The notes under the pieces: generated by a model
What the model was told of the DNA's origin: nothing
The model's input: only the letters and a program-made list of their open reading frames with translations
Database searches by the model: none
Origin: Planctomycetota bacterium
Lineage (GTDB): Bacteria; Planctomycetota; Phycisphaerae; Phycisphaerales; SM1A02
Reading direction: 5' to 3'
Assembly: GCA_016872835.1 (NCBI GenBank)
Contig: VGYX01000009.1
Span: 62,001-126,000 of the forward strand
Length of the DNA: 64,000 nucleotides
Shown: positions 1 to 2,953 of the stretch, piece after piece
Layout: the number at the start of each line of letters is the position of its first letter
Numbering within the stretch: the first letter of the stretch is position 1
Made by a program: the position numbers and the translations under genes

Positions 1-196
1 CCTTCACGAAGCTGCGGAAGTCGAAGTCCTTCTTCACCTCGGCGGCGAAGCTGGTGGGGAAGGTGCGCGCGTCGAAGCGCGTGGTGGGCTCCATGCCGCT
101 GTCGGCGGCGAGCAGGCGCTTCCACACGCTCTCGATCGAGTGGCCGAGGCCGGTGACCCAGCCGATGCCGGTGACGACGATGCGCGGCTCGCTCAT
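1..196 (-). CDS. beta-ketoacyl-ACP synthase, N-terminal part (cut by window edge)
   Basis: Only the first 65 residues are inside the window. They begin MSEPRIVVTGIGWVTGLGHS, which is the first strand and turn of the thiolase-fold ketoacyl synthases (FabF/KAS II type). The catalytic Cys, Lys and His residues would lie beyond the left edge, so activity cannot be judged. The ATG at 196 overlaps the stop of the upstream gene by ATGA, so translation is probably coupled. That upstream gene is a ketoacyl-synthase homologue without catalytic residues. The arrangement resembles KS/chain-length-factor pairs of type II polyketide systems, in which one subunit is active and its partner is not. Expected to condense malonyl-ACP with an acyl or aromatic starter. 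Confidence 0.85.
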   Translation of the reverse strand, partial: MSEPRIVVTGIGWVTGLGHSIESVWKRLLAADSGMEPTTRFDARTFPTSFAAEVKKDFDFRSFVK

Positions 197-1530
197 GAGG
201 CCCTCCGCAGCACGATGGCGGCGTTCTGGCCGCCGAGGCTGGGCGTGTACACGACGACGGTCTTCAGGTCCGCCTTGCGCGCGGCGACCGGCGCCGCGTC
301 GACGCCCTGGCTCGCGTCGCCGTTCACGCGCGCGGGCAGCATGCCGGTGCGAAGCGCCTGCACGGCCACGCTGGCGGCCACGGCGCCGAAGCCGGCGCCG
401 CAGTTGCCGGTGATGGTGGAGATCGTGAGGAGCGGCAGTTGCGCCGCGCGTGCGCCGAACACGCCGCGGATGGCCGCGGCCTCGGCGGCGTCGAGCGCCG
501 GCGTGCCACAACCGAACGGAACGACCGCGTCCACCTGATCGGGCTTCACGCCCGCATCATCCAGCGCGGCGCGAACCGCGTCGGCGATGCCCTCGCCGTC
601 TCGGCCCGGATCGGCGCCGACGGTGTCCGCGCAGAAACTCTGGCTGGCGCCGAAACCAGCAAGTTCCGCAAGCGCCGTCGCGCCGCGCGCCTCCGCGCTC
701 TCCGCCGCCTCGAGCACCAGAATGCCGCCGCCCTCGCCCGCCACGCCGCCGATCGCGTCCTTGGCGAAGGGACGCACGATGCGCGCGGGATCGTCGCTCG
801 CCGTCGCCTGCGCCAGGCGTCCCGCGAACTGCTGACGCAGGATCGCCATCAGGTTCACCTTGCTCTCGGCGCCGCCCGACAGGCACGCGTCGGCCGCGCC
901 GCGACCGATCACGCGCATGCTCTCGCCCACCGACAGCAGCGCGCTGGCCTCGCCGCAGGTGATCGTGTTCGAGGGGCCCTGGCAGTCGTGGCAGATCGTC
1001 ACGTGGCAGGCCAGCATGTTCGGCAGGTACTTCAGCATCCACAGCGGCGTGAGGTTCTGCATGCCGGTGGCGCCCCACGCGGCGATGTCGAAGCCGCCGT
1101 CGGCCTTGCGGCTGGTGGCCAGCGCGGCGGTGAGCTCGTTCTCCTCGGCGGCGATCAGGCCCGCGCCGATGTGGCAGCCCATGCGATCCGCGGGAATCGT
1201 GACCTTGCCGTCGGCGGGCTCGTGCGCCTTCGTGATCAGGCCCGCGGCGCGCACCGCCTCGTACGCCGCGCCCACCGCCAGCTCGATGTCACGGCTCATC
1301 ACCTTGGTGGCCTTGCGGTAGCTCTTCGGCACCACCTGCTTCACGTCGAAGCGGTCGGCCGGCAACTGCGCCACGAACGGGCATCGGAAGCCGGAGATGT
1401 CGAAGATCGAGCACGGGCCCACGCCGGAGCGGCCCTCGAGGAGCGCCGACCAGATCGCGTCGATGCCCAGCCCTGGCGGGGCGATCGGGCCGATGCCGGT
1501 GATGACCACGCGTCGGTTCTGGCGGGGCAT
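193..1530 (-). CDS. catalytically dead ketoacyl synthase homologue (chain-length-factor-like)
   Basis: This 445-residue protein aligns along its whole length with FabF-type ketoacyl synthases, from RRVVITGIG near the start to LGGQNAAIVL at the end. All four catalytic positions are changed. The Cys position in the GPS-x-x-I nucleophile-elbow segment is Glu194, the first His of the HGTxTP motif is Phe339 (PFGCGTP), the Lys position is Ser, and the second His of the TGH motif is Asn376 (STITGN). Loss of the Cys in an otherwise intact subunit is the hallmark of chain length factors, where Gln is usual. I infer a non-catalytic partner of the ketoacyl synthase encoded immediately downstream with a 4-base overlap. 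Start chosen at MPRQNRR because the family begins here. A class II DAHP synthase gene ends 46 bases upstream. Confidence 0.85.
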   Translation of the reverse strand: MPRQNRRVVITGIGPIAPPGLGIDAIWSALLEGRSGVGPCSIFDISGFRCPFVAQLPADRFDVKQVVPKSYRKATKVMSRDIELAVGAAYEAVRAAGLITKAHEPADGKVTIPADRMGCHIGAGLIAAEENELTAALATSRKADGGFDIAAWGATGMQNLTPLWMLKYLPNMLACHVTICHDCQGPSNTITCGEASALLSVGESMRVIGRGAADACLSGGAESKVNLMAILRQQFAGRLAQATASDDPARIVRPFAKDAIGGVAGEGGGILVLEAAESAEARGATALAELAGFGASQSFCADTVGADPGRDGEGIADAVRAALDDAGVKPDQVDAVVPFGCGTPALDAAEAAAIRGVFGARAAQLPLLTISTITGNCGAGFGAVAASVAVQALRTGMLPARVNGDASQGVDAAPVAARKADLKTVVVYTPSLGGQNAAIVLRRAS

Positions 1531-1541
1531 GGAAGTCCAGG

Positions 1542-1547
1542 AATGTA
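1542..1547 (-). promoter_or_regulatory. candidate -10 hexamer TACATT
   Basis: TACATT on the minus strand ends 11 bases before the ATG at 1530. It would give a leader of only a few bases for the ketoacyl-synthase-like gene, although readthrough from the DAHP synthase gene upstream is also possible. No -35 was recognised. Confidence 0.3.
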
Positions 1548-1576
1548 GCGCGATCCGAGTTGCGCCGCCGACCGCC

Positions 1577-2953
1577 TCAGCGGCCAAGGCGACGCGCGAT
1601 CCGCAGCGCCATCTCCAGCGCCTGCTCGTAATTGAGACGGGGATCCACACGGCTGCGATAGGCGGCCATCAGGCCCTCGTCGGAGAGGCCGCGCGCGCCA
1701 CCGGTGCATTCGGTGACTTCCTCGCCGGTCAGCTCGAAGTGCACGCCGCCCATCACCGAGTCCTTCATGCCATGGATCTCGAAGGCCTGCTCGACCTCGG
1801 CCAGGATGTGGTCGAACTTGCGCGTCTTCACCTGCGTGCCGGCCTGCGGACCCGAGGGAATCGTCACGCGGTCGGTGTTGCCGTGCATCGGGTCGCAGAT
1901 CCACAGCACGCGACGCCGCGCGGCCTGCACTGCCGCGATGAGCGGCGGAAGTCCCTTGGCGATCTCATGTGCGCCGAAGCGGTGGATCAGCACGATCTTG
2001 CCGGGCTCGTCGGAGGGGTTCAGCGCAGCCAGCAGTTCCACGAGCCGCTGCGGCGTGGTGCCGGGACCGACCTTCAGGCCCACCGGATTGCGGATGCCGC
2101 GGAAGAACTCGACATGGGCCTCTCCAGGCACCGCCGTGCGGTAGCCGATCCACGGCAGGTGCGTGCTGAGATCCCACCAGCCCGGCTTGTGGGGCACGCG
2201 ACGGGTCTGCGCGGACTCGCTCGGGAGCAGCAGCCCCTCGTGGCTGGTGAAGAAGTCCACGCGGCGCATCTCGTGCACGGGTGCGCCGGCGAGCGTCTCC
2301 ATGAAGCGCAGGCTCTGACCGATCTCGCGCGTGATGCGGCGGTACTCGTCACGCAGCGGGCTGTGCTGCACGAAGTCCAGATCCCAGTACTCGGGGTGGT
2401 GCAGGTCGGCGAAGCCGCCGTCCACCAGCGAGCGGATGAAGTTCAGCGTGATCGCGCTGCGCGCGTGCGCCTGCACCATGCGCCACGGATCGGGGCGGCG
2501 CGCCTGCGGCGTGAAGTCGGGCGCGTTCACGATGTCGCCGCGGTACGCAGGCAGCGAGGCGCCGTCGCGCGTCTCGGTGTCCTCGGAGCGCGGCTTGGCG
2601 TACTGACCGGCGAAGCGCCCCGCGCGGATGACGGGCTTGCCGCTGCCGTGCGTGAGCACCAGGCTCATCTGCAGCAGGATTTTCAGCTTGCTTGCGATCG
2701 AGGGACTGCGGCACTCGTCGAAGGTCTCCGCGCAGTCGCCCCCCTGCAACAGGAAGCGCTTGCCTTCCTGCGCCTCGGCGATCTGCTGCATGAGCGACTC
2801 CACTTCCCAGCTGGTCACGAGCGGCGGCAGGCTGGCCAACTCGGTCACCGCGGCCTCCAGCTCCGCCGGGTCGGGATAGGCAGGCTGCTGCGCGGCCTTC
2901 AGGGCGCGCCAGGAGTCCGGTGACCATTCGGGTTGCGTCGGGTGGTTGGGCAT
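1577..2953 (-). CDS. class II 3-deoxy-7-phosphoheptulonate (DAHP) synthase
   Basis: The 458-residue product catalyses the first shikimate step: phosphoenolpyruvate plus erythrose 4-phosphate gives DAHP. It is the plant/actinobacterial class II type, shown by QGGDCAETF with the metal-binding Cys74, the FFTSHEGLLL segment, GLKVGPGT, CDPMHGNT and the C-terminal GGVHFELTGEEVTECTGG block. The length fits the family. Start is MPNHPTQPEW; upstream of it lies a tRNA gene. It is followed after 46 bases by two ketoacyl-synthase genes in the same direction, so it may either serve general aromatic synthesis or supply an aromatic precursor to that pair; the second idea is inference. Confidence 0.93.
   Translation of the reverse strand: MPNHPTQPEWSPDSWRALKAAQQPAYPDPAELEAAVTELASLPPLVTSWEVESLMQQIAEAQEGKRFLLQGGDCAETFDECRSPSIASKLKILLQMSLVLTHGSGKPVIRAGRFAGQYAKPRSEDTETRDGASLPAYRGDIVNAPDFTPQARRPDPWRMVQAHARSAITLNFIRSLVDGGFADLHHPEYWDLDFVQHSPLRDEYRRITREIGQSLRFMETLAGAPVHEMRRVDFFTSHEGLLLPSESAQTRRVPHKPGWWDLSTHLPWIGYRTAVPGEAHVEFFRGIRNPVGLKVGPGTTPQRLVELLAALNPSDEPGKIVLIHRFGAHEIAKGLPPLIAAVQAARRRVLWICDPMHGNTDRVTIPSGPQAGTQVKTRKFDHILAEVEQAFEIHGMKDSVMGGVHFELTGEEVTECTGGARGLSDEGLMAAYRSRVDPRLNYEQALEMALRIARRLGR

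Follow-up and report, generated by a model that had tools for sequence, protein, structure and literature searches.

Pairs of a ketosynthase (KS) and a chain length factor (CLF) are usually treated as parts of sporadic antibiotic or pigment clusters, and the highly-reducing type II polyketide synthases (PKSs) are sporadic accessory clusters as well. A passage in PMC12664062 calls the CLF an 'inactive' KS without catalytic residues, and another in PMC10698177 gives the composition of the highly-reducing type II PKSs as 'a KS-CLF heterodimer, a KR, and a dehydratase', KR being a ketoreductase. For the aryl-polyene route of E. coli, the predicted start is ApeH, an acyl-ACP synthetase, ACP being the acyl carrier protein (passage in PMC8253772). 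Two FabF paralogues of Rhodopirellula baltica, RB3714 and RB4527, were described in 2009 as having Asp or Glu at the position of Cys163 (excerpt of PMC2649909), and a catalogue of 2023 names Planctomycetes among 14 phyla with KS-CLF pairs (excerpt of PMC10132072). According to a passage in a report of 2020, two cultured Phycisphaerae appear to be without PKSs save for a type III gene in one of them (PMC7783415). Here we analyse a gene for a CLF-like dead ketosynthase at the left edge of a 64,000-nucleotide stretch of DNA (G000:C9:62001-126000, hereafter the window) from a member of the Phycisphaerales whose genome, 2.39 Mb, is 98.9% complete.

Sequence comparisons suggest that this gene and the KS gene next to it belong to a five-gene acyl-chain-building set that occurs in nearly every sampled genome of the class Phycisphaerae. 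The set probably encodes a highly-reducing type II synthase of five components that contains two asymmetric heterodimers and makes an unsaturated acyl product. The make-up of the set, its conservation, the catalytic tetrad of the KS, the acid in the CLF and the decay of one dehydratase site are read from the sequences; the dimers, the sharing of FabD, FabG and AcpS with the ordinary fatty acid synthase (FAS) and the nature of the product we infer.

Results

The CLF gene occupies positions 193..1530 on the minus strand and is translated into 445 amino acids plus stop. An earlier note on this DNA, made from the letters alone, had described a FabF-like protein that keeps the full fold but has lost its catalytic residues, and Pfam, alignment and structure prediction bear this out. 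PF00109 and PF02801 both score above cut-off, and the single chain is predicted to adopt a complete FabF fold (mean predicted local distance difference test, pLDDT, 93.3; predicted template modelling score, pTM, 0.92) with KASII as best structural match (1e5m; VIA Z 60.0, root mean square deviation 1.9 across 407 residues). Alignment to the neighbouring KS puts Glu194 where the catalytic Cys should be, Phe339 and Asn376 at the two His positions and Ser371 at the Lys position. It stays below the cut-offs of both FabF models, TIGR03150 and PRK07314, with 241.4 and 236.2 bits. The 4-base ATGA overlap with a second ketosynthase that reaches outside the window was likewise confirmed. The first 65 of the 440 codons of this active partner lie inside the window (1..196, minus strand); the remainder extends leftward to window position -1126 (G000:C9:60874; the gene is L007:2874-4196:-), and the gene ends 1.1 kb to the left. 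Its catalytic tetrad is complete by alignment to the CLF (Cys182, His330, Lys362 and His367), and the possibility of a second dead synthase thereby falls. The KS scores 436 bits with TIGR03150, under the cut-off of 493.75, and 428.5 bits with the broader PRK07314, over the cut-off of 387. Eighty related loci were found, the best of them 88% identical; they come from Planctomycetota, many from Phycisphaerales or Phycisphaerae.

The substitutions are not peculiar to this genome. From 157 CLFs, 155 could be aligned and 148 remained after removal of near-copies, and the non-redundant KSs numbered 138. The tetrad Cys, His, Lys, His is intact in all 138 KSs. The Cys column of the 148 CLFs contains no Cys at all, but Glu (127), Asp (17), Gln (2), Ala (1) and Asn (1), and is acidic in 144. 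At the other three catalytic positions (His, Lys and His), 13 to 14 residue types are found per column; His is kept in 25 and 5 CLFs at the two His columns, and Lys in 54. Since the Cys column is nearly all Glu or Asp while the other columns vary, the acid at this position is, judged from the alignment, selected for, and the catalytic set is not. Conservation in the CLF peaks at residues 166-195, which lead up to the position of the nucleophile, with entropies of 0.28 and 0.73 where the mean is 1.70. We take the counterpart of this segment in FabF to follow the dimer interface as far as the nucleophile; its conservation would then lend indirect support to an obligate heterodimer whose chain tunnel lies at the interface.

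FabF variants in which the Cys is exchanged for Gln decarboxylate. In a similar way, the acidic subunit could provide the acetyl starter by decarboxylating malonyl-ACP, an activity that has been proposed for the Gln-type (KSQ) ketosynthases: its Cys position is mostly filled by a residue of Gln-like size, and Cys-to-Gln variants of FabF have been crystallised (4jb6 and 2gfv, by title). However, the two His and the Lys are kept in the minority of the 148 CLFs just given (25, 5 and 54), and we regard an active decarboxylase as very unlikely. A non-catalytic subunit in a heterodimer with the KS remains the preferred reading.

The earlier note had proposed to extend the sequence to the left in search of partner genes. 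There, no ACP, ketoreductase or dehydratase gene was seen. The ACP and the dehydratases were therefore sought elsewhere in the genome and in its relatives, and an ACP gene between two dehydratase genes (DH1 and DH2) was found on contig C14 of the home genome, distant from the pair on contig C9. The trio is flanked by an FtsK gene and a LuxR-type regulator on one side and by CoaD on the other (FtsK and CoaD named by eye). Relatives were then grouped by whether they belong to the home order, that is the taxonomic order of the home genome, or not. Of the 58 CLF loci outside it, 56 are from other families of the class and two (L076 and L080) from outside the class but within the same phylum. The gene order DH1-ACP-DH2-CLF-KS is present in 52 of these 58 loci when extra queries are used and in 50 by a stricter spacing test. 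Other families of same-strand genes around the five genes recur in at most 7 of the 58 loci. A cluster resembling short-chain dehydrogenases/reductases lies near the module in 5, and a dedicated ketoreductase is not a conserved neighbour; inside the cluster, a ketoreductase-like gene (named by eye) occurs solely in L076 and L080 among the loci displayed.

A search of 120 loci, with near-copies retained and some genomes represented twice, had the CLF as its best match in 115; in 109 of these a KS follows on the same strand at most 1 kb downstream. This pairing exceeds chance. A class-wide search gave a CLF match at 1e-10 in 298 of 298 genomes, a threshold that admits plain FabF too; at 1e-60 or better, 286 genomes have a match and 12 are without. 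DH2 is matched at 1e-15 in 287 of the 298 genomes (228 of the 231 better ones); four of the 287 matches, with values of 1e-16 to 1e-19, are weak and could stem from a different dehydratase.

Within the home order the set is differently arranged. In 19 of 20 further genomes of the order, or 20 of 21 when the home locus is counted, DH2 is accompanied by DH1 and the ACP in the arrangement DH1-ACP-DH2; near DH2 the 20 genomes have neither CLF nor KS, within flanks of at most ~4 kb on each side. Seen from the pair, none of the 99 remaining CLF loci (home, L042-L059 and L111-L190, many of them short) has the trio beside it on the same strand; three of them have a weaker dehydratase on the opposite strand. 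The cluster thus appears to have been split on the line leading to the home order.

The pair could also be an extra FabF for ordinary fatty acids, in which case the dead copy would be a decaying duplicate or a functionless stabiliser, and the best scores of both proteins are indeed to FabF models and FabF structures. The dead copy is, however, kept class-wide together with its acidic substitution and its highly conserved segment, an ACP and two dehydratases travel with the pair, and a separate FabF is present in the ordinary FAS cluster, all of which make this explanation quite unlikely. The ordinary cluster is on contig C3 and comprises FabF, FabG (above the TIGR01830 cut-off), ACP and FabH (by eye); KS and CLF, on C9, are sited away from these primary FAS genes. 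A PF00109 scan of the genome returned the CLF-KS pair, one other full ketosynthase (the FabF on C3) and two partial matches. There are seven TIGR01830 matches in the genome, and the only one above cut-off is that of the ordinary FAS.

In the home genome, both DH1 and DH2 belong to the FabZ-like hot-dog proteins, with PF07977 above cut-off. Both stay below the NCBIfam FabZ equivalog cut-offs, and the FabA/isomerase model gives 23.5 bits (cut-off 124), with DH2 only. In FabZ, the site is made of a His from one subunit and a Glu from the other. That the active sites of hot-dog dehydratases take residues from both subunits is stated in an excerpt of PMC2698920, and a DH1-DH2 heterodimer would have two such composite sites. 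We searched 79 loci, 73 of which have both proteins, and built the tree without the catalytic columns. None of the 73 loci has lost the His of DH1 or the Glu of DH2, but the reciprocal combination, His of DH2 and Glu of DH1, is broken in 14 of them, by at least 9 changes on the tree. All losses seen fall on one of the two composite sites. If both sites were equally likely to be lost, 9 of 9 losses at one site would have a two-sided chance of ~0.004, a rough value given a quick tree of short proteins. On these counts the dehydratases look asymmetric too. The Ser motif of the ACP is present in 53 of 53 ACP matches; the home ACP is long, with 134 amino acids.

Two dehydratases and a dedicated KS, both present here, are also what the class would need to make its ordinary mono-unsaturated fatty acids without oxygen. 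In such a route, one dehydratase would be an isomerase as well, like FabA, and the KS-CLF would act in the role of FabB and extend the cis-3-enoyl chain. The near-universal presence of the module fits with this, in that a search for a PF00487 desaturase found none in 29 of 61 genomes of the class (22 of the 53 better ones). Yet 32 of the 61 genomes do have desaturases, among them the home genome, where two are found alongside the module. In addition, neither dehydratase of the home genome reaches the NCBIfam FabZ cut-off, the FabA/isomerase score of 23.5 against 124 bits is obtained with DH2 only and, to our knowledge, a dedicated ACP and a CLF are foreign to the FabA/FabB route. Such a route seems unlikely to us, and we continue with the highly-reducing type II synthase as the preferred explanation.

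The origin of the pair was addressed with a careful tree of 72 proteins, from which all three E. coli aryl-polyene rows were left out because of the very long branches of the half-size CLF and one KS; these proteins were too divergent for placement. The planctomycete CLFs fall into one clade with KSs, mostly with an acid for the Cys, from other families in the phylum (support 100/99). Family f39 has two KSs: the first, in which the Cys is kept, joins the planctomycete CLF clade (99/92), and the second forms a clade with the planctomycete KSs (100/99). FabF, FabB and two Streptomyces KS-CLF pairs all lie outside the planctomycete pair group as a whole (100/95). When planctomycete and Streptomyces CLFs were forced together, the cost was 17.5 log-likelihood units (lnL) with a p-value of the approximately unbiased test (p-AU) of 0.066, by which the union is not rejected, two actinobacterial pairs being included. 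An origin of the CLF independent of the Streptomyces CLFs is favoured by the tree, not proved. The arrangement claimed in the earlier note, that of KS and CLF in type II polyketide and aryl-polyene systems, stands as far as it concerns an active KS with a dead homologue in a conserved pair, accompanied by an ACP and two dehydratases; membership in the actinobacterial KS-CLF or the aryl-polyene lineage was not shown, and the pair is a group of its own in the tree.

The f39 loci L077, L078 and L079, which are from the same phylum, carry two KS genes in tandem with both tetrads intact, preceded in L078 by DH1-ACP-DH2. Judged from the tree, this tandem looks like the state before loss of the Cys. 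Further acid-substituted KS paralogues are found in the f50 loci L085, L093, L094, L095 and L096 (same phylum, other families). In L093 and L094 the acid-substituted KS is ~0.4 kb away from a KS with Cys, and in L094 it stands beside ACP, FabD-like and PlsX-like genes (by eye).

The KS is followed on its left by the gene of a small, putatively membrane-anchored protein (L007:2233-2943, minus strand, left of the window), which overlaps the KS stop by ATGA, and then by NuoG (named by eye). The small protein is an orphan of 214 amino acids in the home genome, with one predicted N-terminal helix resembling a membrane span. Its open reading frame was recovered at 48 loci, near-copies included, and begins at most 200 bp from the KS end in 43 of them; no family match was above cut-off and no match was found in the 58 loci outside the home order. 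For the relative in L111, the model (mean pLDDT 89.2) gave weak matches to BPI, CETP, LBP and YceB (Z 5.8, 5.6, 5.5 and 4.9), the best Foldseek E being 6e-3. A membrane-anchored, lipid-binding role is only a guess, and for that reason this third gene is kept out of the mechanism.

On the other side of the CLF gene lies a class II 3-deoxy-D-arabino-heptulosonate 7-phosphate (DAHP) synthase gene (1577..2953, minus strand), with PF01474 above cut-off and TIGR01358 slightly below. The earlier note had taken this neighbour as a hint at an aromatic starter, and an aryl-polyene-like pathway with a shikimate-derived starter would agree with the position of the DAHP synthase, which in 53 of 115 loci (near-copies included) precedes the pair and shares its strand. 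The gene is, however, the sole DAHP synthase found in the genome, the PF00793 match being a KDO-8-phosphate synthase by two NCBIfam equivalogs above cut-off, and outside the home order none of the 58 loci has a DAHP synthase match. The aromatic starter was rejected on these two grounds, and the DAHP synthase is probably a housekeeping neighbour outside the module. Nor was an ApeH candidate recognised beside the module in the displayed loci, as judged by clustering and by eye, with no family search of all neighbours. We consider an aryl-polyene-like pathway of this kind extremely improbable. Further to the right are tRNA-Leu (2980-3062, minus strand), between the DAHP synthase and a DoxX-like gene, and this DoxX domain protein itself (3090-3791, plus strand). 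Near the module in other genomes, GH3-like genes are present in L062, L076 and L203 and DUF362-like genes in L076, L080 and L229 (names by eye); these are possible acyl-transfer or redox partners.

Discussion

The steps of the mechanism that we propose are drawn by analogy from highly-reducing type II PKSs (PMC10698177) and aryl-polyene synthases (PMC8358021, PMC8253772), as described in passages of these papers. KS and CLF would form an obligate heterodimer, in which the window gene would encode the non-catalytic subunit, similar to a chain length factor, and its left-hand neighbour the subunit that condenses. Along with the dedicated long ACP, DH1 and DH2, they would form a second type II synthase that is separate from the ordinary FAS. 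The KS-CLF may condense malonyl units on the ACP of the set, with the ordinary FabD, FabG and AcpS supplying malonyl-ACP, ketoreduction and the phosphopantetheine arm. DH1-DH2 is supposed to be the second asymmetric heterodimer; it would dehydrate at one required composite site made of the His of DH1 and the Glu of DH2. There is no enoyl reductase in the set, so the chain would stay unsaturated or a polyene, and the product would most likely serve for a cell-envelope lipid. The acid of the CLF could block acylation of the second site and shape the shared tunnel.

A number of observations weigh against this proposal. The second His column of the CLF is Asn in 90 of 148 proteins which, with the Lys kept in 54 of 148, means that the drift is not free; the Cys column is non-acidic in 4 of 148, and 14 of the 58 CLFs from outside the home order have Asp instead of Glu. 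The genome G137, which is from the same family as the home genome, has DH2 but no strong CLF match. Among the six remaining loci outside the home order, four are without a KS beside the CLF, one has CLF-KS without the trio and one has DH2 alone of the trio. No releasing or attaching enzyme was found linked to the module. Finally, in the home order the set is dispersed over distant places, and the argument from synteny is weaker there.

A KS-CLF that is nearly universal, even in genomes of ~2 Mb (e.g. G249), points to a conserved lipid of the class. It is tempting to go further and to speculate that almost all Phycisphaerae have an unrecognised core lipid pathway, in which a five-part synthase originated in Planctomycetota separately from the KS-CLFs of actinobacteria and of aryl-polyene systems, asymmetric heterodimers evolved for condensation (with an acid-filled CLF) as well as for dehydration (with a DH pair of one site), and the unsaturated or polyene product is a structural component of the envelope and not a secondary metabolite. 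In this full form the idea is tentative, and we would rather doubt it than assert it. The module would also let one follow, as a natural experiment, the change of a homodimeric enzyme into an asymmetric heterodimer, displayed by both the KS and the DH pairs. The class-wide counts suggest that the module may have been passed over by cluster detection in the report of 2020 (passage in PMC7783415). A description of the five-gene module was not found in the open-licence literature among the matches listed (titles and starts of abstracts, most subscription papers being outside this scope), and the excerpts of PMC11266412 and PMC12078418 contain no passage on it.

How does the module compare with known systems? 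A ladderane link was not borne out by the anammox survey of 2009 (excerpt of PMC2649909): in its Kuenenia paralogues the Cys is replaced by Val, Phe or Ser and not by an acid. In the same excerpt, RB3714 and RB4527 of R. baltica are like the CLF described here in having an acid in place of the Cys, but unlike it they keep His298. The order DH1-ACP-DH2-CLF-KS was seen in none of the 12 displayed loci of L081-L096, a set that does not include the R. baltica genome.

The ishigamide KS-CLF (6KXD) and, with a different outcome, AmcF-AmcG of cispentacin share with the module an active KS whose partner has the KS fold, an ACP of their own, one or more dehydratases and FAS-like chemistry, and the CLF model superimposes on 6kxd_A with Z 57.0. 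In contrast to these highly-reducing type II PKSs, there is no ketoreductase in the cluster in the displayed loci of the class, and no dedicated loading or release enzyme was recognised; the CLF here has Glu or Asp for the Cys, and the system is nearly universal in the class. The aryl-polyene synthase (ApeO-ApeC, ApeI/ApeP, ApeE/F and ApeQ) also has a KS-CLF complex, two dehydratases and dedicated ACPs (passages in PMC8358021 and PMC8253772; E. coli locus L193). Its CLF ApeC is, however, 'about half the size' (passage in PMC8358021), with 240 amino acids in L193 against 445 here, and L193 also carries a ketoreductase, an MMPL transporter and a LolA-family gene, none of which is a conserved neighbour of our module. 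The aromatic type II PKSs of actinobacteria (act, 1TQY) are alike in having full-length KS and CLF in tandem, but the two Streptomyces CLFs have Gln at the Cys position (by eye), stand in the order KS-CLF and form a separate group in the tree, whereas the planctomycete CLFs have Glu or Asp and the order is CLF-KS.

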